From Rhodothermia bacterium (GTDB lineage Bacteria > Bacteroidota > Rhodothermia > Balneolales > Balneolaceae), in contig JAUICM010000006.1 of the NCBI GenBank assembly GCA_030427885.1, positions 1 through 64,000 of the forward strand: DNA of 64,000 nucleotides, written 5' to 3'. Of the stretch, positions 34,058 through 51,225 are shown piece by piece. The notes under the pieces are model-generated. The model searched no databases. It saw only the letters and a program-made list of their open reading frames with translations, and had not been told where the DNA came from. Made by a program: the position numbers and the translations under genes. Numbering within the stretch: position 1 is the first letter of the stretch; the number at the start of each line of letters is the position of its first letter.

Positions 34058-34220
34058 GCGGAGATCAGAAATAAATTCATAGAAAATTCAAAATCTGTTA
34101 CCCAATGTTTTCTAGTGGTTTGAGGTTGCGAGACTAGTAGTGGTTAAGCTTATTTACAGAATTTGAACAAAAAAATATTGCATATAAAAAGTATACCTAG
34201 CATATTGGGCATGTGCTTTG

Positions 34221-34230
34221 GAAGCGCTTC
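34221..34230. promoter_or_regulatory. GAAGCGCTTC palindrome
   Basis: A 10-bp perfect palindrome flanked by TGCT (34214-34217) and AGCA (34236-34239), 38 bases before the receptor ATG. LacI/GalR-family operators often have a central CG of this kind. No LacI-type HTH gene is in the window (the regulator at 55712 has a GntR HTH), so the partner is unknown. Confidence 0.3.
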
Positions 34231-34267
34231 GTTTGAGCAAAAAAGCATATTGCAGATAAGGACAACA

Positions 34268-37144
34268 ATGAAAGCCACGCTTTTAATGGTGTGGAAAAGA
34301 AGAGAAAACGACTTGAGTAAAGGTAAGCAGATTGCAAAGCTGATACTGCTATTTATAGCGATTTCAGGATTTTTTACAAGTATTGGAAAGGCACAGACCA
34401 CTGGATCTTTAAAAGGACAGGTAACCGATTCAGGAACTTCGGAACCGGTGTTTGGTGTGAACATTTTTATCACAGAATTAGGTAGGGGGGCTGCTACTGA
34501 TCTTGATGGGAATTACTCAGTAGAAAACGTACCTGCAGGAACATACGAGGTCCGGTTTTCATACTTAGGATATGTAACTCAAAATATCCCTGTTGTGATT
34601 ACTGCCGGAGAAACCGTTGATGTAAATGTATCCCTTTCACCAGATCTTATAGAAGGAGAAGAAATAACGGTGCTTGCCCAGGCGGCAGGTCAGGTCGCGG
34701 CGATCAAGCAACAGATGGAATCCAATACCATTGTAAATGTTGTATCAAAGGAGAAATTAGCAGAACTGCCAGATAATAATGCAGCTGAATCGGTGGGAAG
34801 ATTGCCGGGTGTTTCCGTTCAAAGAAATGCTGGTGAAGCTTCTAAAGTGGTTGTTCGCGGGCTTTCACCAAAATTCAATTCAATTACTGTGAATGGGATC
34901 AAAATCCCGGGTTCTGATCCAGCTGATCGTTCAGTAGATCTGAGTCTGGTGCCGTCAGAAGTGTTGGATGGTATAGAGGTTTTTAAGGCCCTTACGCCTG
35001 ATAAAGATGCAGATGCCGTGGGTGGTACGGTAAATCTATTGGTTAAAAAAGCTCCGATCGGATTGAACGGAAGTACGAGCTTTGAATATGGATATAATGA
35101 TCTGAGACAGGAGCTGGGTCAGTATAAAGGGAGTTTGAACCTGAGTAACCGATTCCTTGATGATAAACTTGGTGTATTGGTTACGGGTAGTTTTCAGAAG
35201 GCAAATCGTTCTTCTGAGCAGTTGGATAATAACCTTCTTTTTAACCGGGCTGATTCAACATTGAGAACGGAAAACCTGAATTTAGCCGATACCAGAGAAA
35301 CCCGAAAAAGATACGGGGCAAGCATATCATTAGATTATGACCTGGACAATACAGATCTGTTTCTTTCTAGCTTTATGGGAAGAACCGACCGGGATGAGTT
35401 GAGACTCAGAAAAAGATACAGAGTTGGAAATACCAGGGTTGAGTATGATCTCAGAGATCGTGAAAGAACGGAGATTTTATATACTAATTCGCTTCGTGGA
35501 GTTCATAGTAAGGACATTTTTAAAGTAGACTGGCAGCTGGCACATTCCTATAGTCTTGGAAAGCAGCCTTATGGCAATTATGCCAGATTTCAGGAGCTTG
35601 GCGCATTTAAAAATGGTTTGATTGACTATCAGGGGCCTGAAGTAATCCCCGGATTTGCCAGAAATGATCTGAATGCTACCTGGTTTCAGTATGGTACTTT
35701 CAATACCTCGAGATCTACGAACAGAGACCTTACTGCAGAGTTAAATGCTCAGATAGATTATGAAATAGCCAATATCAACGGCTTTATAAAGTTTGGCGGG
35801 AAGTATAAAGACAAGAAACGCATATATGACGTTGACGAGCTAAGAACAGATTATAATGTAGTGAGCGAGATCGGACAGGCTAATCCGGATCTCTTTGATC
35901 TATACAACAGTACACACATCGCCATCAGTAATTTTATTGATCCGGATTATGACAATCCTGATTTCCTGGATGGAGATTATGAAATGACTGTCGGCCTTGA
36001 TCAGCAGGGGCTGGCTGATTTTTATGAAACCTACAGCAGCCGATACGAACTCAACAGAACTATTGATCTGAGTGATTATACAGCAGGTGAGACGGTATCT
36101 GCGGGTTATGTAATGGCCGAAATGAATTTTGGGCCTAAAGTGACGCTCATACCTGGATTCCGATACGAGTACACAGAGAATTTTTATGAAGGCAAATTCG
36201 GTAAGCCAACAGGCAATCTCGGTCAATCAGGTACAATTATTGACACAACCGGTGGACAGAATTATGGCGAGTTATTACCTCAGGTACATTTGAAAGTTAA
36301 TATTATTGAAGGGGTAGATCTGAGATTGGCGTATACCGAAAGCCTGTCTCGCCCGGATTATTATAACCTGGTTCCGTTCGAGCAAGTGAATGATGCTGAG
36401 CAGGTCCTGGCGAGAGGTAATCCTAACCTGAAGCATACAAAAGCCAGTAACTATGATGTGTTTCTTTCTTTTTACAAAAGCAGCCTGGGCTATTTCTCGG
36501 TGGGTGCGTTTTACAAGGAGCTCGATGACATCGACTATATAAGGGTGACACGACTCACTGAAGGTGAATATGCCAACTATGAGTTAACATCTCCGGTTAA
36601 CAGTGATGAGATCACAACGGTTAAAGGGGTTGAGTTTGACCTGCAAACGGATTTCAGATTTTTGCCAAAACCACTGAATGGGTTGATCCTTTCAGCTAAT
36701 CTGGCCTTTATTAATTCGGAGACTTTTTTCCCTTACTTCAAAATCGGACCGAGAGATCCAAACCCACCATTTCGCCCAACTATAGTGGACACTGTACGCG
36801 CCGGGAAGCTACCGGGCCAGCCTGATGTTACTGCAGCAGTGACCATAGGATATGAGATAGGATTGTTTTCTGCCAGATTATCACTCTCGCATCAACAGGA
36901 AATTCTTCAGCAGATATCAACCCAGTCAATTACCGACCAGCTTTCAGATGGCTTCAACTTCTGGGATTTCAGATTGAACCAGTCTTTCAGAAAAATACCG
37001 GGCTTCACCTTTTTTGTGAACATCAACAACCTGACCAGTGAAAGCGAACGCTCAACTATGGGATCAGGAACAGGTGAGTCGCGACTGACACAAGTAAACA
37101 ATTTTGGAATGAATGCCAGTACAGGCTTCAGATATAAATTTTAA
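34268..37144 (+). CDS. TonB-dependent receptor with carboxypeptidase-like N-domain
   Basis: 958 residues from ATG 34268 (preceded by AAGGACAACA). An N-terminal signal (RENDLSKGKQIAKLILLF, to about residue 43) is followed by a CarboxypepD_reg-like domain (about 46-130; GSLKGQVTDSG, GNYSVENVPAGTYEV), the plug (about 140-260; ELPDNNAAESVGRLPGVSVQ, KALTPDKDADAVGGTV) and a 22-strand barrel ending FGMNASTGFRYKF. The plug signature is that of the Xanthomonas/Caulobacter-type (TIGR01782) receptors rather than SusC proper. It imports glycan fragments across the outer membrane using TonB energy. No SusD partner follows. First gene of the utilisation operon; the 105 bases upstream in frame are not used. 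Confidence 0.92.
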   Translation: MKATLLMVWKRRENDLSKGKQIAKLILLFIAISGFFTSIGKAQTTGSLKGQVTDSGTSEPVFGVNIFITELGRGAATDLDGNYSVENVPAGTYEVRFSYLGYVTQNIPVVITAGETVDVNVSLSPDLIEGEEITVLAQAAGQVAAIKQQMESNTIVNVVSKEKLAELPDNNAAESVGRLPGVSVQRNAGEASKVVVRGLSPKFNSITVNGIKIPGSDPADRSVDLSLVPSEVLDGIEVFKALTPDKDADAVGGTVNLLVKKAPIGLNGSTSFEYGYNDLRQELGQYKGSLNLSNRFLDDKLGVLVTGSFQKANRSSEQLDNNLLFNRADSTLRTENLNLADTRETRKRYGASISLDYDLDNTDLFLSSFMGRTDRDELRLRKRYRVGNTRVEYDLRDRERTEILYTNSLRGVHSKDIFKVDWQLAHSYSLGKQPYGNYARFQELGAFKNGLIDYQGPEVIPGFARNDLNATWFQYGTFNTSRSTNRDLTAELNAQIDYEIANINGFIKFGGKYKDKKRIYDVDELRTDYNVVSEIGQANPDLFDLYNSTHIAISNFIDPDYDNPDFLDGDYEMTVGLDQQGLADFYETYSSRYELNRTIDLSDYTAGETVSAGYVMAEMNFGPKVTLIPGFRYEYTENFYEGKFGKPTGNLGQSGTIIDTTGGQNYGELLPQVHLKVNIIEGVDLRLAYTESLSRPDYYNLVPFEQVNDAEQVLARGNPNLKHTKASNYDVFLSFYKSSLGYFSVGAFYKELDDIDYIRVTRLTEGEYANYELTSPVNSDEITTVKGVEFDLQTDFRFLPKPLNGLILSANLAFINSETFFPYFKIGPRDPNPPFRPTIVDTVRAGKLPGQPDVTAAVTIGYEIGLFSARLSLSHQQEILQQISTQSITDQLSDGFNFWDFRLNQSFRKIPGFTFFVNINNLTSESERSTMGSGTGESRLTQVNNFGMNASTGFRYKF

Positions 37145-37200: not shown

Positions 37201-38748
37201 ATGCGAATTGTTACTAAAACCAGCCTTCTCAGGTTTGCATGTTCTTTCAGTTTTGCGTTAATGCTGGCAGTATTTGCCGGAAATAGCGCATTTGCTCAAA
37301 GAACAGTAAATGTAAGTCCTGGAGTAGGTACACTTAACACTGCTATCGATAGTGATACAACCGAAACCGGCGCACGGGTAGACTCTAATACTGTTTATGT
37401 ACTTGAAAGAGATGGTACCTACCTTCTCGAAGGAAGTATTGAGCACAGAGGATACCATCTAAGTATTGTAGCTGAAGAAGGGGAAGGAGCTCGTCCGAAG
37501 CTGATTCCTGCTGTACCAGATGGGGGAGAATCGGGGCGTCCATTCCGACCAAGAGGCGATCTGACCATTAAAGGTCTGTATGTAACTGGTCAGGATGAAC
37601 TGGGTGGTTTAACAACACGCATGTTCCGTATCAGTGAAAATGATGTTACCATCAGAATCGACGATAGCCACCTTGATAAAGATGGCCAAACTGCTTTCAG
37701 GAATGATGGTACTGGCGTACGTCTGTTTCTGACTAACTCAATTGTCAGCAATATGGGTATAACCAGCAGCCCGGATAACGGTAGAGTTCTTGACGATCGT
37801 GGTAACCAAATGGATACGGTTTATTTTGAGAATAACACATTCTACAATATCACAGCTCAGATCATTCGTGATGCTGGTGGGTTGATCAATTATGCGTACT
37901 ACAATCAGAATACTGCATACAATGTTGGAAAAGGTACTGCTGTAGAGTTTGGACCTGTTGTTGAAGGTGTTTTTGAAAATAACATCATTATTAACGGTGC
38001 TGCATATGGTTATCCTGATAACGAAGAAGTAGCATACATCTTAGATGTTGATCCAATGACTGAGGAAGAAACCGATTCTCTTGGAGCCCAGAGTGTATCG
38101 ATCAGTAATAACAACATTTTTACTGCTTCAGAGGTCACAGATGCCTATCCTGATACAGTGAATGCCGCAATGCTATTTACAGAAACCGCAGAAGCATTTA
38201 TCGAAGCTCAGGGTTCTGCTTCAACTAACATCAGTGAAGACATCACTTTCGAAAGTGCTCCCGGTCTTCCAACAACTGTAGTTACTGAATTTTATGCAGG
38301 TTCTGCAGGTAATACTGAGTTCGATACAGCAAATGAGCCATTCGACTTCAGCTATGCTGATACTTTTACTTCATATTCTGCCGGTACCCGGGGGCAGGCT
38401 GTTGGATCTCTTAACTGGTTCCCTGGTATGACTGTTTCAGTTGAAGAGGACCTGTTCTCTGATAATCCTGACGGATTTAAGATCAATGGAAACTATCCAA
38501 ACCCGTTCAACCCATCTACTAACATCTCAATCAGTCTTCCACAGGCTGCAGATGTATCAGTTGATATTTTCAACATGATCGGGCAAAAAGTATTAAGTAT
38601 TCCTGCTCAGCGTCTGGCTGCCGGTACTAACCAGTCGCTTAGAGTTGAAGCTGGAAACCTGACTTCCGGAATGTATATATACCGTGTTACAGCTGTTTCA
38701 GGCGCCAACACCATGGTTAACTCCGGACGTATGACTTTAATAAAGTAA
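37201..38748 (+). CDS. T9SS-sorted beta-helix-like surface protein
   Basis: 515 residues: signal peptide (to about residue 33, NSAFAQ), a repetitive beta-rich body (about 34-410) with parallel beta-helix character (LTIKGLYVTGQ, TIRIDDSHLDKDG, LFLTNSIVSNMG, DTVYFENNTFYNI), and a T9SS sorting domain (about 425-515; NYPNPFNPSTNISI to MTLIK). The body resembles DUF4957/DUF5123 proteins of polysaccharide loci and the fold of chondroitinase B-type lyases, but I see no catalytic residues that decide it. It sits directly after the TonB receptor, where SusD would be in Bacteroidetes loci, so it may be a surface glycan-binding protein or a lyase. Good ribosome site GGAGACAACA before the ATG. Confidence 0.75.
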   Translation: MRIVTKTSLLRFACSFSFALMLAVFAGNSAFAQRTVNVSPGVGTLNTAIDSDTTETGARVDSNTVYVLERDGTYLLEGSIEHRGYHLSIVAEEGEGARPKLIPAVPDGGESGRPFRPRGDLTIKGLYVTGQDELGGLTTRMFRISENDVTIRIDDSHLDKDGQTAFRNDGTGVRLFLTNSIVSNMGITSSPDNGRVLDDRGNQMDTVYFENNTFYNITAQIIRDAGGLINYAYYNQNTAYNVGKGTAVEFGPVVEGVFENNIIINGAAYGYPDNEEVAYILDVDPMTEEETDSLGAQSVSISNNNIFTASEVTDAYPDTVNAAMLFTETAEAFIEAQGSASTNISEDITFESAPGLPTTVVTEFYAGSAGNTEFDTANEPFDFSYADTFTSYSAGTRGQAVGSLNWFPGMTVSVEEDLFSDNPDGFKINGNYPNPFNPSTNISISLPQAADVSVDIFNMIGQKVLSIPAQRLAAGTNQSLRVEAGNLTSGMYIYRVTAVSGANTMVNSGRMTLIK

Positions 38749-38858: not shown

Positions 38859-41405
38859 ATGATCGGTAGAAGCTTAATCATCTTAACCCTTTTTGTTTCT
38901 TCTTTGGCGTGTAGCTCAAACTCTCCGCAGAAGATCAGCTTTACAAACCAGCCATATTTCTTTGACGCAGGAGGTGCAAATTCATCGCTGAAAAGTGAAA
39001 CTTACCCCCTGACCCCGAAACTGAAGTACTCAGAAGAATTTGGGTATGGATTTACCAATACAAAGGCTGAAGGGTTCTACCATGAAGACACAGAACGTTC
39101 AAGAGACGATTTTTTAATAGATGGCATTATAAGCGGGGATATAACTTTCAAGGCAGATATCCCGGAAGGAGACTGGTGGTTAACCATATGGTTTGAACTT
39201 GGCATGGAGGATTCAAGCACTACACGACTCTATATCAATGGAGAGAATTTGACTCCGGCGCTCCAAACCTTCACCCCTGAAGCAGAAGGAAGAGAAGTAA
39301 TAGACCAAACCTATCGGTTGGTTCAAAGAAAATTTCGTGCATCCGAAACGGGTTTTAATTTCAGAATGGAAGGAGTTGAGGATGACGTCCGACTATTAGG
39401 CTTTAGCCTGATCCCTGACCCGGAAGCAAGTGATGATGAAAGAGCCGTTGCATTAACAAAAGAAATCAGAAAGGCAGGGAAGTTCAATAGTACAGATAAA
39501 CTTGAGCCTTTGATTGCAAAGCTTGATCGTTTAAAAAATGAGCCCGGGATGCAGAATTTTTCAGCATTCTGGAAGCTACAGCTTCAGATCGTTAAAGAAG
39601 GAGAGAAATTCTTCAATTACAGGGGATGGAGTCACAGAACTGAAGAAACCGGTATGGGACTTTTCGATCATATTCATCAGGGTATTCTGATGTACGATGG
39701 TATGCTCACTTCTACTGAAGCTGAAAAAAATCTGATGTATGAGAGAGCCTTATGGTACAATGCGAGATTATTGTACTGGCTATGGCTTGAAGGTGGATCT
39801 TACCGTGAAAGGGAAGCCGCTTTTACATACATGAGGAAAATGAAGCAATTATATCCGGATGATGAACTGGTGAGGATGTATAATGGAGAAAAGATCGATA
39901 CCAAAGATCGTTTCGATGACATCAAGAAGCCAGCCAATGCTCCAGAATGGGCCTTTGCTGAGTGGGAAGTATCCAACAGACTGAAAGAGGTTGTTGATTG
40001 GTGGGTGCTTGAACAACAGAATGAAAATGGCGAGTTCGGTGGTAAATTCGGTGATGATGTGGAAATACTTCGGTTTTGGTCGCCACTGATCCTTTCAGGT
40101 GATTCAGTTACTTATCAGGGTTGGAAGAAACTGGCAGACGGAGTGTGGAACAGTTCAAAAGTGAAAGACGGATATGCCAAGAAACCAAGTGATGTTGAGC
40201 ATTCTTCAGAATTCATCTCTGATACCGCACCATTGATGGTTTTATATAATGATTCAGAAGAATATGAGCATCGTTTGTCTTATTCAGCTGATTATTTTAT
40301 GAATTTATGGACGGGCTTCAATGAAAACGGGCATCGTTTCTTTAAGTCATCCTGGTTCAGCTCCAGTGAAATAGAAATGGAGCCACCGAAAAACAGAGAT
40401 GTACCTTACACTACCCGTGCAGCAAAAGCCGTTCGATATTATGCCTGGAAGTCAAAGGATCCATCAACCTTAAAAGCCCTTGAAGAGTGGGCAGATGGAT
40501 GGCTTGCAGTAAGCCAAAAAACTGATAAAGGAAAACCCAAAGGTATAATTCCGGCTTCGGTTGCTTTCCCTTCGGAGAACTTCAATGGCGATGAGGAAAC
40601 CTGGTATATCGCCAACATGTTTTGGGATTATTTTGATTGGGATGGTGGCGCTTCAATTCTGGATCAGTTGCTGTTTACCTGGACCATAACCGGAAATGAT
40701 AAGTACCTGACACCGTTCTACCAGCACCTGGAACTGGTTTCCAAATATGATAAAGAATTGTCGAAACCAGAGAATCCATTCAAAGAAGGATCGGAAGGCT
40801 GGGCTGCGTATATACTTGGTAACAGTGGGAATTTCTGGAATGTTTCTGGCACTTGGAGGCTGCTTTCCGGTGACACAAAATATGATAAACTTATCATTGA
40901 GCACGGTACTCCCTTTATCAAATACAGGCTTACCGGAAATGAAGACTATTTGGTGGAAGGTATCCAACCTTTTCTGGAAACCATCCGCTATAACGTTCCA
41001 ATGATCTCGACTGAAGCCATTCATACCGATCGTGTTCATATTGGTCCCGACAGAGCCCGCGAGATCGGTATCCTGCAGGGCATGATCACAGGCTATGGAA
41101 TCGGAGAAAGTTCGTCACCCTACATTGCAGTTAGCTGGGAAAAGGCAAGCAGAGATCTGACCTATCTGGTTACAGGAAGTGATTCAACAAGCCTGGATGT
41201 AGATATCTATTCCTTTTCAAATAAAGAAGAATCAGTGACCATGAGATTATGGCAGTTGAAGTCTGGACTCTACAGCCTTAAACAAACTCAAAATGGAAAT
41301 GAAGAGATCCGCGCTATTGATGTGATCAAGGCAGGGGATCGTTTTGAGCTAAAAATACCTTCAAAAGAACCTGTTTCGATACAAATCGAACGAGTGGGCA
41401 ACTAA
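38859..41405 (+). CDS. Unclassified glycan-locus lipoprotein, helical-toroid-like
   Basis: 848 residues with lipobox SSLAC at about residue 18. Residues 25-185 look like a malectin or galactose-binding beta domain (YFFDAGGANSS, GDWWLTIWFELG, LYINGENL, FNFRMEG). From about 200 to 760 the chain is helical and very Trp/Tyr/Asp-rich (WAFAEWEVSNRLKEVVDWWV, FSAFWKLQLQIV, FWDYFDWDGGASILDQLLF), as in (alpha/alpha) toroid lyases and hydrolases. A C-terminal beta sandwich (about 765-848) follows. I cannot assign it to a known GH or PL family. By position and layout it is the best candidate for the polymer-attacking surface enzyme. It is upstream of the Nramp-like gene by 13 bases. Confidence 0.7.
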   Translation: MIGRSLIILTLFVSSLACSSNSPQKISFTNQPYFFDAGGANSSLKSETYPLTPKLKYSEEFGYGFTNTKAEGFYHEDTERSRDDFLIDGIISGDITFKADIPEGDWWLTIWFELGMEDSSTTRLYINGENLTPALQTFTPEAEGREVIDQTYRLVQRKFRASETGFNFRMEGVEDDVRLLGFSLIPDPEASDDERAVALTKEIRKAGKFNSTDKLEPLIAKLDRLKNEPGMQNFSAFWKLQLQIVKEGEKFFNYRGWSHRTEETGMGLFDHIHQGILMYDGMLTSTEAEKNLMYERALWYNARLLYWLWLEGGSYREREAAFTYMRKMKQLYPDDELVRMYNGEKIDTKDRFDDIKKPANAPEWAFAEWEVSNRLKEVVDWWVLEQQNENGEFGGKFGDDVEILRFWSPLILSGDSVTYQGWKKLADGVWNSSKVKDGYAKKPSDVEHSSEFISDTAPLMVLYNDSEEYEHRLSYSADYFMNLWTGFNENGHRFFKSSWFSSSEIEMEPPKNRDVPYTTRAAKAVRYYAWKSKDPSTLKALEEWADGWLAVSQKTDKGKPKGIIPASVAFPSENFNGDEETWYIANMFWDYFDWDGGASILDQLLFTWTITGNDKYLTPFYQHLELVSKYDKELSKPENPFKEGSEGWAAYILGNSGNFWNVSGTWRLLSGDTKYDKLIIEHGTPFIKYRLTGNEDYLVEGIQPFLETIRYNVPMISTEAIHTDRVHIGPDRAREIGILQGMITGYGIGESSSPYIAVSWEKASRDLTYLVTGSDSTSLDVDIYSFSNKEESVTMRLWQLKSGLYSLKQTQNGNEEIRAIDVIKAGDRFELKIPSKEPVSIQIERVGN

Positions 41406-41418
41406 ACCGGATAGTATA

Positions 41419-42669
41419 GTGACAGTAAAGAAAGAATCATTTTTCCAGAAATTTAAATTACTCATCCTTTCACTTGGACCGGGTTTATTCATTATCGGAT
41501 ATAACATCGGTACCGGAAGTGTTACCTCAATGGCATCAACCGGTGCTGAATACGGTATGATGTTAACCTGGCCTTTACTGCTTTCATGTGTGTTTACATA
41601 CATCCTGATCGTAGTATTTGGGAAGTACACTTTGGTAACGGGTGACACGGTGATTCACAGTTATAAGAAGCATTTTGGTAAACCAGCCGGTCTGTTTGTA
41701 TTGATCGCGCTTATTTTCACAGAAGCTGTAGGAAGCGTGGGTGTAATGGCTATCGTTACTCAGGTTACACAAGAGTGGACAAGGCCACTGACAGCTTCAG
41801 GCAGCGGAATTGATCCGATCTATTCTACATTGGGATTCGGAGCCATATTGTATGCCCTTCTTTGGAATGGGAAGCAGAATTTTTTCGAAAAGGTTTTAGC
41901 TGTATTTGTGGGAATAATGGGATTCAGTTTTCTGCTTACAATGATCATGGTCATACCTGATCCGGGTCAGGTTCTTGCCGGTGTGGTTTCAGGTGTGCCA
42001 AACGAATCAGGCGCTTTTTTGCTGGTAGCCAGTATGGTTGGAACCACAATGGGTGCAGTGATCTATGTAGTCAGGTCTGTTCTTATCAAAGGTAAAGGTT
42101 GGGGAATGAATCAGTTACATCTCGAAAAAAGGGATGCTAAAGTATCAGCCATAGTGATGTTTGTCTTAAGTATCTCGGTGATGGCAGCGGCTGCCGGGAC
42201 CCTGTATCCGCAAGGGATCAAAGTAGATAACGCCATTGATATGGTGAAGCTATTGGAGCCATTTGCCGGCAAATTTGCTCTTTCTATTTTTGTGGGAGGT
42301 ATTCTTGCTGCAGGACTTTCATCTCTTTTCCCGCACATTATGTTAGCTCCGATGCTGATCTCAGATTACAGAGGGGTGAACCCGGATTATCAATCTACTA
42401 CTAACAGGCTGATCTCACTTGGAATCATCCTGTTAAGTTTGCTTGTACCAATTTTAGGAGGCCGTCCTGTTTTTATAATGATCCTTTCCCAGGCATTTAT
42501 TGCCACGGTAACCCCGGTTGTGATCGTACTTATGCTAATACTGATGAACCGCAAAGAGGTGGTTGGTGAGCATACATTATCCCGTAAGCAGAATATGATG
42601 GTGGGCACAACACTCGTCTTTTCAGCTGTGATGGCGGTTTTCGGAATGATGGGCATTTTTGGAATTTAG
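41419..42669 (+). CDS. Nramp-fold transporter without the metal-binding residues
   Basis: 416 residues, GTG start at 41419, about eleven membrane segments. The first segment reads LGPGLFIIGYNIGTGSV, which aligns with the Nramp segment GPG...DPGN, but the Asp and Asn that bind metal are Gly and Ser. In the sixth segment GTTMGAVIYVVRS stands where Nramps have the MPH motif. The core ligands Asp, Asn and Met are therefore missing. It is Nramp-related by fold, not a probable divalent-metal importer. Between a surface lipoprotein and beta-glucuronidase it may carry an oligosaccharide, sugar acid or other locus product across the inner membrane. Confidence 0.75.
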   Translation: MTVKKESFFQKFKLLILSLGPGLFIIGYNIGTGSVTSMASTGAEYGMMLTWPLLLSCVFTYILIVVFGKYTLVTGDTVIHSYKKHFGKPAGLFVLIALIFTEAVGSVGVMAIVTQVTQEWTRPLTASGSGIDPIYSTLGFGAILYALLWNGKQNFFEKVLAVFVGIMGFSFLLTMIMVIPDPGQVLAGVVSGVPNESGAFLLVASMVGTTMGAVIYVVRSVLIKGKGWGMNQLHLEKRDAKVSAIVMFVLSISVMAAAAGTLYPQGIKVDNAIDMVKLLEPFAGKFALSIFVGGILAAGLSSLFPHIMLAPMLISDYRGVNPDYQSTTNRLISLGIILLSLLVPILGGRPVFIMILSQAFIATVTPVVIVLMLILMNRKEVVGEHTLSRKQNMMVGTTLVFSAVMAVFGMMGIFGI

Positions 42670-42701: not shown

Positions 42702-44546
42702 ATGCTATATCCTCAACAAAACAACTTTAGGACCTTGTTCGACCTTGGAGGTTACTGGAACATCAAGGCCGATCCTAATGGAAACGGAACACAGGAGAAA
42801 TGGTTCTCCACAAAACTGGAGGGCGATGTACACACGATCGCGATCCCGGGTTCCTGGAATGAGCAACTTGAAGAACAGGGATTTAAAAATTACATAGGTA
42901 AAGCCTGGCACGAAACCACATTCAAAATTCCGGGGGCCGTTCAGAAATCGAATAAGATATGGCTCCGGGTAGGAGCAGCTGATCATAAAGCCACTGTTTG
43001 GCTGAACGGTATTTTTATCGGAGAACATGAAGGGGGATATATGCCCTTTGAGCTGGATCTGACTAATGCACTTAATCCTGCCGGAGAGGAGAATCATCTG
43101 TCCATCTGTGTGGACAGCGCATTAAGTATGCATACCATTCCTCAGGATGTAGACCCGGAATCGGACATGTACAATACGCCGGCGTATGAAAGACGTCATT
43201 TATTTCCTGCAACAAGATTTGATTTTTTCCCTTATGGAGGATTAACCCGGTCGGTGCAACTGGCTGCTATTCCATCTGAGCGTATTTCTGATATAACGGT
43301 TCATTCTGCTTTGAACGGATCTGTAAAAGTTGAAACCGTTTGTGAGGGTGGAGACTCTGTCAAAGTTCAGATTCTGGACGCAGAGGGAAATGAGATCGCC
43401 AGGGATTCGGGTAAAGATAATGTTGATCTGAAGCTTGAGGATGTTCATCCATGGTGTCCGGCTTCTCCATACCTGTATTCTGCAAGAGTTTCGCTGATAT
43501 CAAATGGGGAAGTTGTTGATCAGTTTGATCAGGAATTTGGTATCCGGGAAGTGAGGGTTGATGGCGGAAAGATCTATCTGAACAATGAAGAATTGTTTAT
43601 GAGTGGATTCGGGAAGCACGAAGAATTTCCGATCGTTGGCCGAGGGCAATTTCGTCCGGCTTATGTTCGCGATCATGAACTAATGCGATGGATCGGCGCC
43701 AATTCTTACAGAACCAGTCATTATCCCTATGATGAGGAGATGATGCGGTTGGCTGATAAAATGGGATTTCTGATCATTGATGAAGTTCCGGCTGTAAGTC
43801 TGGGTTTCTGGTCAGATAAGTTTGACGATCTGGCACCCTTATTCGAAAACCATAAGAAAGCGATCGAGGAATTGGTAGTTCGTGATAAAAATCACCCAAG
43901 CGTGATCTCATGGTCTATTACCAACGAGCCAAATCTGTGGGCTGAAGAGCAATATCAGAACGAAGCCAGCTCGAGATACTTCAAAGAACTTTATGAGTTT
44001 ACCAAAGGACTGGATAGTACCAGACCAGTGATGTCGATCTCAATGGCGATGTACAAAGAAGATGATTGTCTGATCGAACATTGTGATATCATTGGTATAA
44101 ACCGCTACTATGGATGGTATACCAAGCCAACCGATTTGGAACAAGCAGGCAAGGACCTGGCACGAGAACTGGATGCCACATTCGCAAAATATGGCAAGCC
44201 GATCATGATCACCGAATTTGGAGCGGATACTGTGGAAGGTCTTCACTCCACAACAGCTCAGATGTTTACGGAAGAATTTCAAATAGCTTTTACGTTCAAA
44301 TATCTGGAAGTAATGGAAGCCCGTGATTTTGTGGTAGGAGCTCATGTCTGGAATTTTGCTGACTTCCTGACTCCACAGCATTTCAGAAGAGTGGTTTTGA
44401 ATAAGAAAGGGGTGTTTACCAGAGACCGGTATCCAAAAGGAGTAGCCTTCAAACTCAGGGATCATTGGAACTCATTAGGTAAGATCAATGGTTCACACCG
44501 CCCAAAACCACCAAAACCAGGATTTCTGGTTTCAGATATCAAATAA
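42702..44546 (+). CDS. Beta-glucuronidase (GH2)
   Basis: 614 residues, no signal peptide, so cytoplasmic. Three-domain GH2: jelly-roll (about 10-185), Ig-like (about 190-280) and TIM barrel (about 285-600). The acid/base Glu is in SWSITNEPN (about 409) and the nucleophile in MITEFGAD (about 505). The glucuronidase-specific NxK motif is present in NKKGVFTRDR (about 566), which reads the carboxylate of glucuronic acid, and NRYYGWY is also as in UidA. Length and residue spacing closely match E. coli UidA. It releases beta-linked glucuronate from imported oligosaccharides. Confidence 0.9.
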   Translation: MLYPQQNNFRTLFDLGGYWNIKADPNGNGTQEKWFSTKLEGDVHTIAIPGSWNEQLEEQGFKNYIGKAWHETTFKIPGAVQKSNKIWLRVGAADHKATVWLNGIFIGEHEGGYMPFELDLTNALNPAGEENHLSICVDSALSMHTIPQDVDPESDMYNTPAYERRHLFPATRFDFFPYGGLTRSVQLAAIPSERISDITVHSALNGSVKVETVCEGGDSVKVQILDAEGNEIARDSGKDNVDLKLEDVHPWCPASPYLYSARVSLISNGEVVDQFDQEFGIREVRVDGGKIYLNNEELFMSGFGKHEEFPIVGRGQFRPAYVRDHELMRWIGANSYRTSHYPYDEEMMRLADKMGFLIIDEVPAVSLGFWSDKFDDLAPLFENHKKAIEELVVRDKNHPSVISWSITNEPNLWAEEQYQNEASSRYFKELYEFTKGLDSTRPVMSISMAMYKEDDCLIEHCDIIGINRYYGWYTKPTDLEQAGKDLARELDATFAKYGKPIMITEFGADTVEGLHSTTAQMFTEEFQIAFTFKYLEVMEARDFVVGAHVWNFADFLTPQHFRRVVLNKKGVFTRDRYPKGVAFKLRDHWNSLGKINGSHRPKPPKPGFLVSDIK

Positions 44547-44564: not shown

Positions 44565-45362
44565 ATGAGTTCAGATCGCTTAAAGATATGGCATGTTGGG
44601 AACTGGTGTATTCACATTGGCCAAACCTATGTGGAATCTCCCTTTGAAGCACCAAGTAAAGATGTGGAAGTACTTAACTATGCCAAACCCCTTATCGATG
44701 CACTGCGAAAGATCCCGACATCAGAGGTTATAACACAACCTTCCTGGGAAATGTACAGAATGTCGCCAAAGGAATTTGATGAGAGACTTGAGTGGGCAGA
44801 TGTGATCATTTTCGCTGACGTGGAAACGAAATGTCTGATGCTTCACCCTGATTTCTTCAACCGCGCCAAATGGGAAGAAGGCTATGTTACTTTTCCGGAT
44901 CGATTTGATCTGCTTCGCGAATGGGTGGAAAAAGGAGGTCATTTCCATATGAACGGAGGATGGCTGAGCTTTTCCGGAGAACTTGGAAAAGGGGGATGGG
45001 GACGTTCCCGTTTCAAGCATGTATTGCCGGTAGATTGCCTTCAGCATGATGATCTGATCGAGTCAACTTCGAGCTATGTAGTGCGCTGCAATGATCCTGA
45101 GCACAAATCAGTGAAAGGAGTTGACTGGGATACAGTTCCACCGATCCTTGGATTTAATGAAACGAAGATCAAACCGGGAGCTAAGGCCATTGTTGAGATC
45201 GAGAATATGGGAGAATGGCATCCTTTGTTAGCAGAACACAATTTTGGAAAAGGTCGTGTTACTTGCTGGATGACAGGAGCTAGTCCGCATTGGGGCATCA
45301 ATTTCATGAAATGGGAACAGTACCAGCAGTTCTGGACACAACTCTTTAGCCCCGAAGCATGA
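44565..45362 (+). CDS. GATase1-like (DUF1355-type) protein
   Basis: 265 residues, cytoplasmic. The centre, GGHFHMNGGWLSFSGELGKG followed by VLPVDCLQHDD, matches the putative glutamine amidotransferase family once called DUF1355. The position of the nucleophile Cys in true amidotransferases holds Asn/Gly (HMNGGWL), so glutaminase activity is doubtful. The C-terminal EHNFGKGRVTCWMTGASPHWG is also family-typical. Members occur in sugar catabolic operons, but their role is not established. The last four bases overlap the start of the next gene. Confidence 0.7.
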   Translation: MSSDRLKIWHVGNWCIHIGQTYVESPFEAPSKDVEVLNYAKPLIDALRKIPTSEVITQPSWEMYRMSPKEFDERLEWADVIIFADVETKCLMLHPDFFNRAKWEEGYVTFPDRFDLLREWVEKGGHFHMNGGWLSFSGELGKGGWGRSRFKHVLPVDCLQHDDLIESTSSYVVRCNDPEHKSVKGVDWDTVPPILGFNETKIKPGAKAIVEIENMGEWHPLLAEHNFGKGRVTCWMTGASPHWGINFMKWEQYQQFWTQLFSPEA

Positions 45363-46852
45363 ATTTTCACCTGATCGACTGGATCATACTGGTAGTATAT
45401 CTGGCCTCAACAGTATATGTGGGGCTGTGGGTTAAGAAGTATGTTCATAACCTTACCGGATATATTGTTGCAGGAAGAAAGATCAAAGTATCGCTGGGTA
45501 TTGCCACATTTACTGCAACAGAATTGGGTACGGTTACTTTTGTGTACTTCGGCGAGTTGGGTTATGTGACGGGATTCGCCTGTTTTATTATCGGGATACT
45601 GGCGTTCATTGCCTACACAACCGTAGGCAAAACCGGCTTTATCATCGAAAAGCTAAGACAGTATGGTATGATGACAATACCTCAGTTTTATGAGCTCAGG
45701 TTCACTAAAAAAGTAAGGGTTTTAGGCGGATTGATCCTGTTTATAGGAGGGGTTCTGAATATGGGGATCTTCCTCAAATTCGATGGAATATTTCTTAGTG
45801 AGGTAATGGGCTTTGGCCCACAGGCGCTTGGCTTCATAATGACTCTGATGCTTATCGTGGTGATGTCTTATACCATTCTGGGAGGCATGTTCTCCGTGGT
45901 GATCACCGACTTTATTCAATACGTGGTGCTTTCTTTTGCGATGTTGCTGACAACAGTGATCGTTCTTTGGGAAGTGGACCTGACTACTATTTCTGATGCA
46001 GTAATGTCGGGTTATGGTCACGGAGGAGTTAACCCTTTAGAGAATTCACGGTTTGGCTGGAGTTTTATCGTGTGGATATTGGTCACAAACATTGCAGCGG
46101 CCGCATTATGGCAGCCGGGTACTTCAAAAGCACTATCCTCAAAAAGTCCTGAGGTAGCTAAAAAAGTGTTTTGGGTTACAGGGTTAACATTTGCAGGCCG
46201 GGCTATGATCCCGATGTTCTGGGGTGTGGCAGCATATGCATACTTCGGTCCGGGTGAAAGCACCACTGCTGCAATGCCCATGTTACTGGGAGAATTACTT
46301 CCGGTTGGATTGCTTGGATTATTGGTTGCTGGATTGTTGGCTGCATCAATGTCTACCTACAGCTCCTATGTGCTTGCCTGGAGTTCAGTGATCACTCTGG
46401 ACGTGATCAATGTGATAAAACCAGGTGGTTACAGTGAAGACAAACAGATCTTTATTTCCCGCTTCATCTCGGGACTGATCGGTTTGTTCCTGCTGGTATT
46501 CGGACTTTGGTATCAGATTCCTGAGACTGCTTTTCAGTATTTGTTTATTACGGGAACCATGTACACTGCAGGAGCTTTGGGAACGGTTACGGCTGGTTTG
46601 TATTGGAAGAAAGCGAATGCTGTTGGAGCTCATGCTGCATTGATCTTAGGAGCTATAGTACCAGCAGGTTTTCTGATCCTCGAAAAATTTGCAAATAGCT
46701 TACCAGACTGGCTAATGTTTGTAACGGATGTGAACCTGGCCGGATTTATGAGTTTTATAATGGCTGCACTGGGAATGATCGTTGGATCGTTAACAACCCA
46801 GAAAAGAGTCCCCGCTAAAGTAATCAACGAAACGGAGCTTAGTTATGAATGA
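45359..46852 (+). CDS. Sodium/solute symporter, SSS family (1)
   Basis: 497 residues with about thirteen membrane segments (first: LIDWIILVVYLASTVYVGLW). The sodium-site region is SSS-like: NIAAAALWQPGTSKALSSKS and LLVAGLLAASMSTYSSYVLAWSSV, where the Ser/Thr run in the eighth segment coordinates sodium. Substrate unknown; the locus suggests a uronic acid, amino sugar or disaccharide. It overlaps the upstream gene by four bases and the downstream small ORF by eight. Confidence 0.9.
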   Translation: MNFHLIDWIILVVYLASTVYVGLWVKKYVHNLTGYIVAGRKIKVSLGIATFTATELGTVTFVYFGELGYVTGFACFIIGILAFIAYTTVGKTGFIIEKLRQYGMMTIPQFYELRFTKKVRVLGGLILFIGGVLNMGIFLKFDGIFLSEVMGFGPQALGFIMTLMLIVVMSYTILGGMFSVVITDFIQYVVLSFAMLLTTVIVLWEVDLTTISDAVMSGYGHGGVNPLENSRFGWSFIVWILVTNIAAAALWQPGTSKALSSKSPEVAKKVFWVTGLTFAGRAMIPMFWGVAAYAYFGPGESTTAAMPMLLGELLPVGLLGLLVAGLLAASMSTYSSYVLAWSSVITLDVINVIKPGGYSEDKQIFISRFISGLIGLFLLVFGLWYQIPETAFQYLFITGTMYTAGALGTVTAGLYWKKANAVGAHAALILGAIVPAGFLILEKFANSLPDWLMFVTDVNLAGFMSFIMAALGMIVGSLTTQKRVPAKVINETELSYE

Positions 46853-46994
46853 TGGCGTAACGATCTGGATGATCCTGTTTGCAGTTTTTGCACTGATCTT
46901 TTTTGTGATCGCAGGTATTGTTTCCTGGAAAGGAGTAGCTGATATCAAAGAATTAATGGAAGACCCTGAACTGAATCAAAGCAATGATCAATAA
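46845..46994 (+). CDS. 49-residue single-span membrane protein, probable symporter partner
   Basis: ATG 46845 to TAA 46994. One strongly hydrophobic helix (WMILFAVFALIFFVIAGIV, residues 8-26) followed by a short amphipathic, acidic cytoplasmic-like tail (SWKGVADIKELMEDPELNQS). Its start overlaps the symporter stop by eight bases and its end overlaps the next gene by eleven, so it is coupled on both sides and almost certainly translated. Small accessory subunits beside SSS symporters are known in other bacteria. I do not recognise a named family. It is easily missed because of its size. Confidence 0.75.
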   Translation: MNDGVTIWMILFAVFALIFFVIAGIVSWKGVADIKELMEDPELNQSNDQ

Positions 46995-47889
46995 GAGAAT
47001 AACAGCGTGTTATTTGTATCCGATCACCAAGTACGGATATCCCCCGAAAGCAGAAAACACCATCAATTACATTGATGAGTTCAAAGAACTGGGGTTTAGT
47101 TCTATAGAATTGGAGGGAATCAGAGAAGAGCATCTGATGGGCGTATATGAGATTAAAGATCAGGTAGCGGCATACATCAGAGAGCAAAAGATGGAAGTTC
47201 CTTATTTCTGTGTGGTGCTACCGGGGCTTTCGTCACCGGATCAGGAAGTTCGAAATAATAACCTTGAACTGTTCCGGAAAGGATGTGAGATCGCTTTTGA
47301 TCTCGGTTCATCAGGAGTGCTTGATAATGCACCGCTGCCTCCATATGTATTTCCGGAAGATATTCCTGTTGTTCGGCATTATCATGAAGATGTGGTACTA
47401 GCAGCTAAGTTTCCTGATGGCCTTAACTGGAATTCCTATTGGAATGAAATGACGGAGACGTACCGGGAAGCATGTGACATCGCTTCAGAATTTGGCCTTA
47501 GTTACCAGATGCATCCTGCGCTGGGCGTGCTTTCATCCACAACAGATGCGTTCCTGCATTTTCACGATGCCGTTGGCAGAGATAATCTGCGCTTTAATTT
47601 TGATACCGCTAATCAGTATTTCCTTAAAGACAACCTGCAATTGTCACTACGAAGACTTGCTGAACATATCGACTATATACATATATCAGATAATGGTGGA
47701 AAACAGGTAGAACACCTGGCGATTGGAGATGGAATTATACGGTGGGATGATTTTTTTGAAACCATAGATAAGATCGGCTTCAAAGGACAATTTGGAATCG
47801 ATATAGGAGGATCAGAATCTACTGTATCTGATCTCGACCTTGCCTACAGGAATGCAGCACAATTTTTGACCGAAAAGATCAGTAAATGA
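46984..47889 (+). CDS. Sugar phosphate isomerase/epimerase-like TIM barrel
   Basis: 301 residues, AP-endonuclease-2/xylose isomerase-like barrel. Metal-site elements on successive strands are visible: SSIELEGI, SYQMHPALG, NFDTANQYF, YIHISDNG and FGIDIGGSES. Members interconvert keto sugars or epimerise sugar acids. It could process glucuronate or another monomer of the locus, but no substrate motif is decisive. It overlaps its neighbours on both sides. Confidence 0.8.
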   Translation: MINKRITACYLYPITKYGYPPKAENTINYIDEFKELGFSSIELEGIREEHLMGVYEIKDQVAAYIREQKMEVPYFCVVLPGLSSPDQEVRNNNLELFRKGCEIAFDLGSSGVLDNAPLPPYVFPEDIPVVRHYHEDVVLAAKFPDGLNWNSYWNEMTETYREACDIASEFGLSYQMHPALGVLSSTTDAFLHFHDAVGRDNLRFNFDTANQYFLKDNLQLSLRRLAEHIDYIHISDNGGKQVEHLAIGDGIIRWDDFFETIDKIGFKGQFGIDIGGSESTVSDLDLAYRNAAQFLTEKISK

Positions 47890-50459
47890 AGAAGATTATA
47901 CTATTACTATTCATCGCAACAGCGATATTCAGCTTGCAGAGCAGCGTTTCTGCGCAAGGCATTAAGGTTGTTCCAATGCCACAGGAGGTACGGTATGAAG
48001 GGGGAGAGTTTGACCTTAATGCAGACATCTCAATACAACTGTATCTGAATGATAAAGAGGAGGAAGCATTTCTGCTCGGGCAGATTAAAGATGAGTTAGA
48101 TCAGAGTATTGGATCTCAAGATTATTCTTCAGTTGATGATTCCGCTCAGGATATCATTATAGGGATCAAAGGTGGTTCAAGGACATTTAACCGGCTTATT
48201 AGAGAATATGATCTGGAACCCGGAAAGGAACTGGGTGATGAAGGGTACAGACTGCTTGTTAATAAAAAAATGATACTTATTTCAGCCAATGAAACTGAAG
48301 GAGCATTTTATGGAGTTCAGACCTTAAAACAATTGATAAGAACTCAAAGGATCGAAGGTTCAATTCCAGGTCTTAAGTTAAAAGACTGGCCCGATCTTGA
48401 GATCCGTGGAATGATGGATGATATCAGCCGGGGTCCGGTTCCGACAAATGCGTATTTCAAGCAGCAAATAGAGCGCATGGCAGAGCTTAAGATCAATATG
48501 CTTACCTATTACACCCAGGATGTGGTTAAGACAGAGAAGCATCCCGCGTTTGCTCCTCCAGGTGGCGCACTTGATATTGAGGAATGGGCTGAACTGGCCG
48601 ATTACGCCAGAAAATATCATATCGATCTGGTTGGTAATTTTCAGTCGTTCGGACACTTCGACCAGATCCTGAAACATCCTGAGTATGCACATCTCGGTGA
48701 AAACGGAACACTGCTTTCACCCGCATTTGAGGAGAGTTATGAGCTGCTTGAGGACATTTACAAAGAAATGATCCCGGCCTTTCATTCCGATTATTTTCAT
48801 ATCAATTCAGATGAAACCTTTGATCTTGGCTCAGGTGCCTCAAAAGCAATGGTTGACAGTCTTGGACTATACGTGGTGTACGCCAACCACATCAAGCGCA
48901 TTCATAAGATCATTACAGGAATGGGCAAGAAAGTGATGATGTGGGGGGATATTGCGCTGGAACATCCCGAAATGCTGGAGTTACTTCCCAAAGATATAAT
49001 CCTCATTACCTGGGGCTATGATATCATGGAAGATTATGCACCTCGCATCGAACCATTTAAAGAAGCTGGTTTCAAACAGTTGGTATCTACAGGGATACTT
49101 AATTCTTACAGTACTATTCCTGATTTCAATGTTGCCAGAGGTAATATTGGAGGTTTCATGGCAGAAACAAAGAAACAGGGAGTGTGGGGTATGCTAAATA
49201 CGGTATGGGATGACGGGGGCTTTGCGTTGTTCTCAAAGGATTGGTACGGGGTGGCTTATGCAGCAGATCAAAGTTGGAACAGTACTTTTCCCAACGACGA
49301 ATCCTATGACGATCGTTTTAACGCCGCAGTTTATGGGAGTACGAATAACGGACTATCAGAAGCACTTCATACAATCAATGATCTGGCCAAATTGAAGTCT
49401 ACAGAAAAAATGAATGAGGATGTTCTTTGGGATCAGGTTATCCCGGATAAAGGATCGGAGACTTTGATGAATATAAAGGATTGGCCAAAGGTGATGGAAA
49501 TTGCTGATAAAGCAGAGCAAAGCCTGCAACAATATGATCCGCTGATCTATGGAGAGGATGTACAATTTGTTCAGCATACCATTGATCTGTACAAATATCT
49601 GGCGATGAGCCGTACGGCTTTAGTTGAAGCATCATCAAGCTACAAAGAAGCCGTGGCAATGGATCCTGTAAAATACAATTCCAGAAGAGATAAACTGGTA
49701 GCGGCATTCACAAAAGTTGCGAAGGTAACGGAAGCATTGACCGATCTAAAATTCACTAATCAATATCTGTGGACGATGGAAAACAGGGTGTATGCATTAG
49801 ACCGGGTTATTTCAAAATACGATGATCAACTTTCCGCACTCACAGAGGTGAAGGATTCCTTACTCTCAGAAATGTATGCGTTGGATAGAGGGGAAAAACT
49901 GGCCCCGGCATCTGAATTACGCCTTGATATCAATGAATCAGAAGGCTGGTATTTCCAGGGGTGGCTGATGATAGAACCCATCCCATATCCCGCAGGAGCA
50001 GCCGATGCAGGAATTGATCACCTCGAAGACATGGGAGGTATTGGAACAACCTTCCCGAATGTAACTGAGGAGTTTTATTACGATGGCGTTAAGTACAGAT
50101 GGAAAAGAGTAAACACCCCATATTTTGCAAAAGTTGACCTGGGTGAGCTTCATGGCGAAAGTGAGAATGTAGCCATGTATGCATTTGCTCATATCGATAT
50201 ACCTGAAGACAGAACTGTAAGGGCAACAATTGGAAGCAGTGACGGAGCAGAAGTTTTTGTGAATGGGAAATCAGTATTCAAAAACTACACAGAAAGAGAG
50301 TTTGAGCCTGATCAGGATGAATTATTTCTACCCCTGCACAAAGGAAGAAATCATTTGATGATACGCATCACGAATCACACAGGCGACTGGGCTTTCAGTT
50401 TCAGAGTTCCTGATTCAGAAATGAGGAGCTATAAAAACAGATATAAGATCATCGAATAA
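47886..50459 (+). CDS. Beta-N-acetylhexosaminidase-like (GH20), exported
   Basis: 857 residues with signal peptide (to VSAQ, about residue 23). GH20b-like N-domain (about 25-160; VVPMPQEVRYEGG, GYRLLV, GAFYGVQTLKQLI), catalytic barrel (about 165-480; LEIRGMMDDISRGPVP, HINSDETFD with the Asp-Glu pair at about 309-310, VMMWGDIALEHPE, WDDGGF), a helical segment, and a C-terminal beta domain (about 680-857) that may bind glycan. The usual DE pair is kept, but HINSDET differs from the common HIGGDE. It trims terminal N-acetylhexosamine in the periplasm. Good support for an amino sugar in the substrate. Confidence 0.85.
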   Translation: MKKIILLLFIATAIFSLQSSVSAQGIKVVPMPQEVRYEGGEFDLNADISIQLYLNDKEEEAFLLGQIKDELDQSIGSQDYSSVDDSAQDIIIGIKGGSRTFNRLIREYDLEPGKELGDEGYRLLVNKKMILISANETEGAFYGVQTLKQLIRTQRIEGSIPGLKLKDWPDLEIRGMMDDISRGPVPTNAYFKQQIERMAELKINMLTYYTQDVVKTEKHPAFAPPGGALDIEEWAELADYARKYHIDLVGNFQSFGHFDQILKHPEYAHLGENGTLLSPAFEESYELLEDIYKEMIPAFHSDYFHINSDETFDLGSGASKAMVDSLGLYVVYANHIKRIHKIITGMGKKVMMWGDIALEHPEMLELLPKDIILITWGYDIMEDYAPRIEPFKEAGFKQLVSTGILNSYSTIPDFNVARGNIGGFMAETKKQGVWGMLNTVWDDGGFALFSKDWYGVAYAADQSWNSTFPNDESYDDRFNAAVYGSTNNGLSEALHTINDLAKLKSTEKMNEDVLWDQVIPDKGSETLMNIKDWPKVMEIADKAEQSLQQYDPLIYGEDVQFVQHTIDLYKYLAMSRTALVEASSSYKEAVAMDPVKYNSRRDKLVAAFTKVAKVTEALTDLKFTNQYLWTMENRVYALDRVISKYDDQLSALTEVKDSLLSEMYALDRGEKLAPASELRLDINESEGWYFQGWLMIEPIPYPAGAADAGIDHLEDMGGIGTTFPNVTEEFYYDGVKYRWKRVNTPYFAKVDLGELHGESENVAMYAFAHIDIPEDRTVRATIGSSDGAEVFVNGKSVFKNYTEREFEPDQDELFLPLHKGRNHLMIRITNHTGDWAFSFRVPDSEMRSYKNRYKIIE

Positions 50460-50463
50460 TATA

Positions 50464-51225
50464 ATGACCGAAGAAATCCGAAAATTCAAAGCTTGTGAAC
50501 TGTCAGTTGAGGTATATCCTTCCAGATTAAAAATGGGGGAAGCCGCAGCTTCTCATGTTGCTGAACAGTTCAGAAAAGTAGTCTCTCAAAAAGGTGAGGT
50601 GAGGATTATTTTCGCAGCTGCAGTATCACAGCTCGAATTTATTGCTTCATTATTGAAATTCAATGACATCCCCTGGGAGAAGATCGTGGCTTTCCATATG
50701 GATGAATACCACACTCTACCGGCAGATGCACCTCAACGATTCGGAAACTTCCTGAAAAAACATCTGTTCAGTAAAAAGGAATTTGGCAAAGTGCATTACA
50801 TCGCCGATAACATGAATAGTTATGTATCACTTCTGGAAGAGGCTCCAATTGATATTGTAGCTTTGGGAATAGGCGAGAATGGTCACCTGGCTTTTAATGA
50901 TCCTCCTGTAGCTGATTTCAATGATCCAAAGACCATTAAGGAAGTTAAGCTCGATGAAGTTTGTCGCCAGCAGCAGGTGAATGATGGTGAATTCAGATCT
51001 ATTGATCTGGTGCCAGAAACGGCACTTACCATCACGATGCCGGCCATCATGAAAGCTGATTTTCTGTCAGTTGTGGTGCCGGGGCCCGCTAAAGCTGATG
51101 CTGTTAAGAAAACCATCTACGATGAGATATCAACCGAATGTCCATCAACCATTTTACGCATTCATCCGAATGCCAAACTATTTCTGGATGCAGAATCCTC
51201 ACAACTCGCAATGAATAAACAATAA
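50464..51225 (+). CDS. NagB-like sugar-phosphate deaminase/isomerase, divergent
   Basis: 253 residues of the NagB/RpiA/SugP isomerase family. FHMDEYHTL keeps the general-base Asp, and GIGENGHLAFNDPP keeps the His. Compared with E. coli NagB (NDGHIAFNEP) the Asp before Gly-His is Asn and the Glu is Asp. The usual phosphate-loop GVGTIL reads TMPAIM. It is thus a different subfamily from the second NagB in the window (58666-60582) and may act on another hexosamine phosphate or as an isomerase. It starts 4 bases after GH20. Confidence 0.8.
   Translation: MTEEIRKFKACELSVEVYPSRLKMGEAAASHVAEQFRKVVSQKGEVRIIFAAAVSQLEFIASLLKFNDIPWEKIVAFHMDEYHTLPADAPQRFGNFLKKHLFSKKEFGKVHYIADNMNSYVSLLEEAPIDIVALGIGENGHLAFNDPPVADFNDPKTIKEVKLDEVCRQQQVNDGEFRSIDLVPETALTITMPAIMKADFLSVVVPGPAKADAVKKTIYDEISTECPSTILRIHPNAKLFLDAESSQLAMNKQ

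Follow-up and report, generated by a model that had tools for sequence, protein, structure and literature searches.

Nramp-fold proteins without the usual metal-binding residues are conserved in bacterial sugar operons and may carry monosaccharides

Nramp-related proteins that lack the DPGN and MPH motifs have been described as a paraphyletic assemblage that includes 'G-motif' groups and is uncharacterised except for NRMT and MntG (Ray, Berry and Gaudet 2026, PMC12873925), and Cellier has described an 'orphan' outgroup of the Nramps (PMC10606218). The specificity of most Nramp-related proteins is regarded as unknown and metal transport as likely (PMC13060092). The closest solved structure to the protein studied here is that of EleNRMT, an NRAMP-related Mg2+ transporter (PDB 7QIA). 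In Corynebacterium, growth on the organic solute 5-oxoproline requires the NRAMP-family protein PxpT (PMC13274462), and Mn2+ import has been reported for its homologue YcsG (PMC10448178). The accessible parts of PMC12873925 and PMC10606218 report neither a sugar-operon link nor a substrate for the group that we call IGTGS. In open-licence papers we found no link of any Nramp clade to sugar uptake or to nag or glucuronate operons; for alginate there was one figure legend, in which a gene of the alginolytic systems of Alteromonas sp. 76-1 is drawn as 'Nramp, metal-ion transporter' (PMC6431674, Fig. S3 legend).

We have analysed an Nramp-related gene in a window of 64,000 nucleotides, the whole stretch taken from a contig of a Rhodothermia bacterium (GCA_030427885.1, JAUICM010000006.1). 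The features are collected in Table 1. The open reading frame is intact, starts with GTG and encodes a product of 416 residues. In Pfam, the product scores 177 bits with the Nramp family PF01566 (cut-off 29.8) and covers positions 1-356 of the 357 in the profile. Of the NCBIfam models, it fails MntH (66.7 bits, cut-off 430) and passes 'Nramp family divalent metal transporter' (64.5 bits, cut-off 50), and therefore its automatic label would be metal transport, as the preliminary description had warned. By sequence, its best relative in the PDB is EleNRMT (E 6e-17). An AF2 model built with 58 clade sequences (pLDDT 85.7, pTM 0.86) gave EleNRMT as the top Foldseek match in the PDB with a TM score of 0.84, and all top matches were Nramps (0.78-0.84), including the canonical DraNramp (0.81) and BfraNramp (0.78). 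Two helices of this model are interrupted, TM1 at 30-31 and TM6 at 212, so that the protein belongs to the Nramp superfamily both by its Pfam score and by a LeuT fold with two broken helices. A promoter and terminator scan gave scores not above those of shuffled sequences.

Table 1. Features of the Nramp-related gene and of its surroundings in the window
Feature	Position	Strand	Basis or remark
TonB-dependent receptor, starts the co-directional run	34163..37144	+	Pfam
Secreted protein of 515 aa, has a Por secretion tail, without recognised catalytic family	37201..38748	+	Homologues in about ten related loci
848-aa protein, stops 13 nt upstream of the Nramp gene	38859..41405	+	Homologues in 11-14 related loci
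Nramp-related carrier, IGTGS clade, LeuT/Nramp fold	41419..42669	+	Pfam, AF2/Foldseek, tree
TM1 motif G31-T32-G33-S34, replaces D-P-G-N; break at residues 30-31	41509..41520	+	Alignment, AF2; invariant in 58 proteins
TM3 Glu102, candidate specificity residue; Glu 37/37 in subclades A and B, Gln 8/9 in C	41722..41724	+	Alignment
TM6 G208-T-T-M-G212-A-V-I-Y-V-V-R219, replaces G-A-T-V-M-P-H...H237; break at 212; Arg219 invariant	42040..42075	+	Alignment, AF2
GH2 beta-glucuronidase, 32 nt downstream of the Nramp gene	42702..44546	+	NCBIfam PRK10150.1, 604.8 bits, cut-off 544
GATase1-like protein	44565..45362	+	Pfam PF07090
SSF-family sodium/solute symporter	45359..46852	+	Pfam
AP_endonuc_2 sugar isomerase/epimerase-like enzyme, most regular subclade A neighbour	46984..47889	+	Pfam, neighbour counts
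GH20-like enzyme (hexosaminidase relatives)	47886..50459	+	Pfam, neighbour counts
Divergent NagB-like enzyme (glucosamine-6-phosphate deaminase family)	50464..51225	+	
PhyH-family dioxygenase	51230..52057	+	
GH88 family, unsaturated glucuronyl hydrolase type	52077..53870	+	
Second SSF-family symporter	53870..55609	+	
GntR/LacI-type sugar regulator, divergent, faces the operon	55712..56833	-	

The preliminary description, made from the letters of the sequence, had read the gene as an Nramp-fold transporter in which the TM1 motif DPGN is replaced by GTGS and the TM6 motif MPH is lost, and with them the Asp, Asn and Met that coordinate metals; it named a misaligned motif region as what could overturn this reading. 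Our comparison bears the reading out. In TM1, GYNIGTGSVT of the window protein stands against AYMDPGNFA of DraNramp, and in TM6 GTTMGAVIYVVRS stands against GATVMPHVIYLHS. In a 99-row alignment, D56, P57, G58 and N59 of DraNramp fall without gaps on G31, T32, G33 and S34, and V229, M230, P231 and H232 on M211, G212, A213 and V214. Since the alignment is gap-free and the breaks of the AF2 model lie on the motifs, we consider the register right at both helices. The Met of 'GTTM' (M211) stands one residue before the position of Met230 and is therefore not the metal-coordinating Met, so that M-P-H is wholly replaced. A gapped TM6 pairing that sets VIY against VIY and keeps Met230 as M211 was rejected, because the AF2 break is at G212 and the GTT-anchored alignment runs without gaps across canonical, PxpT-like, NRMT and IGTGS proteins.

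In 58 aligned proteins, with identities down to 37%, there is no variation in GTGS, the TM6 GTT or Arg219, the conservation of the motif in loci L057-L136 being partly by construction, as the genome-contig scan was selected for [IV]GY[NT]IGTGS. With this invariance, the motif change is neither chance nor a sequencing fault. Among 49 clade members, in DraNramp numbering, D56 is Gly and N59 is Ser in all 49; M230 is Gly, Ser, Ala or Thr, H232 is mostly non-polar (Ala, Val, Ile or Pro), and H237 is Arg in 49/49. In TM3, where the register is less certain owing to a one-residue gap, E134 is Gly in 49/49 and D131 is Ala, Ser or Gly. The replacement in TM9 is partial, R352 being replaced and an Arg at 353 mostly kept. 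Where canonical Nramp/SLC11 proteins have DPGN and MPH, the window protein thus has GTGS and GAV, which are invariant or nearly so in its subclade. The NRMT group, though also without DPGN and MPH, keeps Glu134 and, at the D56 position where TM1 is broken, an Asp, in 10/10 proteins each. The loss of ligands is not peculiar to the window protein, as PMC12873925 describes an Nramp-related group that likewise lacks DPGN and MPH. Several positions are specific to the subclades A, B and C: 29 is N, N and T, 102 is E, E and Q, 211-212 is MG, CS and MA, and 354 is M, M and Q, respectively.

The comparison with canonical Nramps, NRMTs and other related clades that had been proposed at the outset was made with a maximum-likelihood tree of 82 proteins, in which all 44 IGTGS proteins formed one clade (support 100/100). 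Canonical Nramps (100), NRMTs (100), the PxpT-like IGPGT proteins (100/98) and smaller groups were separate from it in this tree, which was rooted with canonical Nramps and in which the order of groups depends on the rooting and some groups have very long branches. One scan confirmed at least 591 relatives in the clade. A whole-genome search with the full protein and without motif selection returned 21 places at 38-100% identity, below which the matches fell to roughly 30% identity or lower, and agrees with the motif-selected scan on the picture of the clade. Its members come from Bacteroidota, KSB1, Gemmatimonadota, Neomarinimicrobiota and Proteobacteria. In the window genome (98.7% complete) we found no canonical, NRMT or PxpT-like Nramp; another Nramp-like gene in it (L002, G000:C8:14466-15509) has the TM1 motif VGVSH. 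A plasmid search gave no matches with a subclade C query and one, 38% identical, with the window query (CP054241.1:807178-808412); no gene is annotated there, and the record, which is 834 kb long and deposited as an E. coli plasmid, may be chimeric.

The Nramp gene lies inside a 13-gene co-directional run (34163-55609), which agrees with the sugar-operon placement first given for it. Its gene content suggests that the polysaccharide concerned contains both glucuronate and hexosamine. The 515-aa secreted protein had no match in the PDB and is possibly an undescribed polysaccharide-degrading enzyme. The 848-aa protein had no match in Pfam, NCBIfam or the PDB, and its homologues often lie directly upstream of the Nramp gene in related loci. 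A few kilobases beyond the operon are a NagB/PIG-L-type fusion (58666-60582, minus strand; PRK02122, 1071 bits) and a BadF-family kinase weakly similar to N-acetylglucosamine kinase (57791-58669, plus strand); with these two, amino-sugar genes cluster at this locus. On one side of the operon lies a kynureninase-like gene (32786-33973) and on the other a gene for tryptophan 2,3-dioxygenase (56953-57732), both on the minus strand.

Across the clade, gene context was counted in 49 representatives with less than 75% identity. In subclade A (n=26), a gene for AP_endonuc_2 is adjacent to the Nramp gene in 17/26 and within five genes in 20/26, a GH20-like gene is within five genes in 15/26, and a NagB-like gene in 6/26. 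In subclade B (n=10), nagA adjoins the Nramp gene in 4/10; a NagB-like gene is adjacent in three of these four and within two genes in all of them, and some loci are exact nagA-Nramp-nagB triplets. Both nagA and a NagB-like gene are also present in an outlying locus (L102), and several other outlying loci and subclade B loci have no nag genes nearby. When the NagA assignment was tested with TIGR00221, five of seven proteins were over the cut-off and two just under it. Overall, a NagB homologue lies within five genes in 11 of the 49 representatives, with 1-4 PF01182 genes per genome; this proximity is far above chance (binomial p ~4e-14, shared ancestry ignored). The operon of Arenibacter (L118:2238-12008) has the order LacI, DUF6807, two GFO/IDH, 3-keto-disaccharide hydrolase, NagA, Nramp and NagB, a content that points to an amino-sugar keto-glycoside route; no second recognised transporter lies between LacI and nagB. 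The flavobacterial runs of subclade C contain alginate lyase PL7, GntR, MFS, SDR, PfkB, PFK, KDPG aldolase and Nramp. This subclade, in which a KDG kinase is among the genes beside Nramp, also includes a further locus in which an alginate lyase adjoins it, a scanned neighbour that belongs to the PL6/chondroitinase-B family, and a locus with DGOK and a KDPG-type aldolase (L157).

As a control, we took 70 proteins from the two gene positions on either side of 18 other Nramps, which comprised canonical, NRMT, PxpT-like and further ones; the 25 commonest families of these neighbours include DtxR/MntR-type repressors, FeoA, MgtE_N, CBS, PxpA and housekeeping genes. The same positions at 16 IGTGS loci, some of them related to one another (59 proteins), include GH20, AP_endonuc_2, GH88/GH127-like, AXE1, aldolase, PFK, NagB and NAGidase families among their 25 commonest. 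The sugar-operon setting is thus supported as a conserved property of the clade. That the clade is always found in sugar loci, a point proposed for checking at the outset, holds nearly throughout subclade A, and the setting is weaker in subclade B and in small outlying branches.

Based on these results, we consider that the window protein is probably an inner-membrane secondary carrier of the Nramp/LeuT fold that imports a monosaccharide freed by the surrounding polysaccharide pathway. An organic substrate is favoured in view of the genome context, the loss of ligands and the precedent of PxpT, and the putative role as a carrier of an organic sugar solute is favoured over all other readings combined. 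The support for monosaccharides (amino sugars, uronic acids or keto-deoxy acids) is stronger than that for oligosaccharides. For the subclade of the window protein, the most likely substrate would be a hexosamine or uronate from a glucuronate/hexosamine polysaccharide, and the substrate probably differs by subclade, being of the hexosamine type in B and perhaps A and a uronate or keto-deoxy acid in C. With slightly more reserve, we incline to the view that the IGTGS clade is the first Nramp-fold carrier family dedicated to sugars (hexosamines in A and B, uronates or keto-deoxy acids in C), its members being annotated at present as metal transporters.

The substrate would be held between TM1 and TM6 where these helices are unwound (I30-G31 and around G212), as in other LeuT-fold carriers, and the conserved breaks of this fold should still form the central site. 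The pocket may be lined by GTGS, by Thr209 and Thr210 and by the subclade-specific positions 29, 102 and 211-215, and the invariant Arg219 and the Glu or Gln at 102 could have a role in recognition or gating. Because such a site offers no acidic or thioether ligands but backbone groups, Ser/Thr and a nearby Arg, an organic solute that is uncharged or an anion would fit it better than would a divalent cation. The positions of the break region vary by subclade, the Glu being gone in the alginate type, as expected if substrates differ.

The main rival is metal transport that serves the enzymes of the pathway. Here the protein would be a new type of divalent metal transporter (for Mg2+, Mn2+ or similar), NRMT-like and working through backbone carbonyls, Ser/Thr and water, which supplies cofactors to the isomerases, deacetylases and kinases of sugar operons. 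The characterised members of the family nearly all carry metals, and EleNRMT, the top PDB match by sequence and fold, carries Mg2+ and Mn2+ without DPGN or MPH, so that losing these motifs alone is no proof against metal. AP_endonuc_2 enzymes, the commonest neighbours in subclade A, and NagA are often metal-dependent, and metal supply could explain part of the linkage. It also speaks against sugar uptake that the window operon has two SSF symporters and subclade C operons an MFS protein, an extra sugar carrier being not strictly needed, and that a canonical Nramp is absent from the window genome and YcsG is reported to raise cellular Mn2+ (PMC10448178). However, the IGTGS clade lacks the acidic residues kept by NRMT (Glu134 and the Asp of the TM1 break) and has an invariant TM6 Arg; to judge from the alignment, this combined change would be a stronger argument against metal than the loss of DPGN and MPH. 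Moreover, what the three subclades have in common is sugar pathways rather than one metalloenzyme, and their neighbours are not metal regulators, in contrast to the canonical and NRMT controls. Accordingly, we regard metal transport as unlikely.

We find it improbable that the protein carries a by-product or other small solute instead of a sugar, for instance the acetate released by NagA, the ammonium released by NagB or an amino acid. Amino acids are carried by LeuT-fold relatives, and genes for 5-oxoprolinase adjoin those of the PxpT-like relatives, but the alginate/KDG loci of subclade C yield neither acetate nor ammonium, and one by-product does not cover three settings. The presence of SSF or MFS transporters in some of the operons would also be compatible with an Nramp-derived sugar sensor or a non-transporting membrane component. 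However, the AF2 model retains the transmembrane helices and both breaks and has no extra domain, and Nramp is the sole recognised transporter of the Arenibacter nag operon, which makes such a role very improbable. Sugar uptake is the preferred reading, under which the 'metal transporter' of the databases is probably a mislabelled sugar carrier. If this is true, sugars are also moved by a fold that was believed to serve metal ions almost exclusively, and this would help to explain how Nramps arose from carriers of organic solutes in the APC superfamily. The missing inner-membrane carrier of marine bacterial amino-sugar operons, and perhaps of alginate operons, would be supplied as well, and many genes at present listed as metal transporters would have their annotation corrected.

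In comparison with known systems, canonical Nramp/MntH proteins (DraNramp, BfraNramp) share the fold and the Pfam family with the window protein, in which all of their metal-binding and most of their proton-pathway side chains are replaced, and they have other neighbours. EleNRMT also lacks canonical DPGN and MPH and has GTT in TM6, but it keeps the Asp of the TM1 break and Glu134, has the motifs NDAGG and APW and belongs to its own clade; the window protein has neither motif, and the two clades separate at 100/100. PxpT/YcsG (MntG) shares the Nramp fold, an operon with catabolic genes and the change of the TM1 Asp to Gly (IGPGT in the PxpA-adjacent Bacteroidota group, taken as relatives). However, the PxpT-like group forms its own clade, keeps Pro in both motifs with VVPYN in TM6, has mostly His at position 237 and Glu/Asn in TM3, and neighbours PxpA instead of sugar genes. 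The window protein lacks IGPGT and VVPYN, stands outside that clade and is not beside PxpA, which this genome has on another contig. In many Bacteroidota genomes, a comparison of coordinates places the IGPGT gene beside PxpA; these IGPGT/GTTVVPYN Nramps (L024-L033 and similar) are probably PxpT-type 5-oxoproline carriers. The Nramp of Alteromonas sp. 76-1, likened here by locus and not by sequence, resembles subclade C in its alginate locus, but is labelled a metal-ion transporter in that source. As far as the accessible parts of PMC12873925 and PMC10606218 describe them, the 'G-motif' groups agree with the IGTGS clade in having the Nramp fold without DPGN or MPH, Gly in place of the TM1 Asp and most proton-pathway residues gone; in the IGTGS clade, the loss of the TM3/TM9 proton-pathway residues is only partial in TM9. 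Nramp-related proteins without the metal site and the precedent of PxpT for an organic substrate were thus already known, and what appears new here is the link of a clade to sugars.
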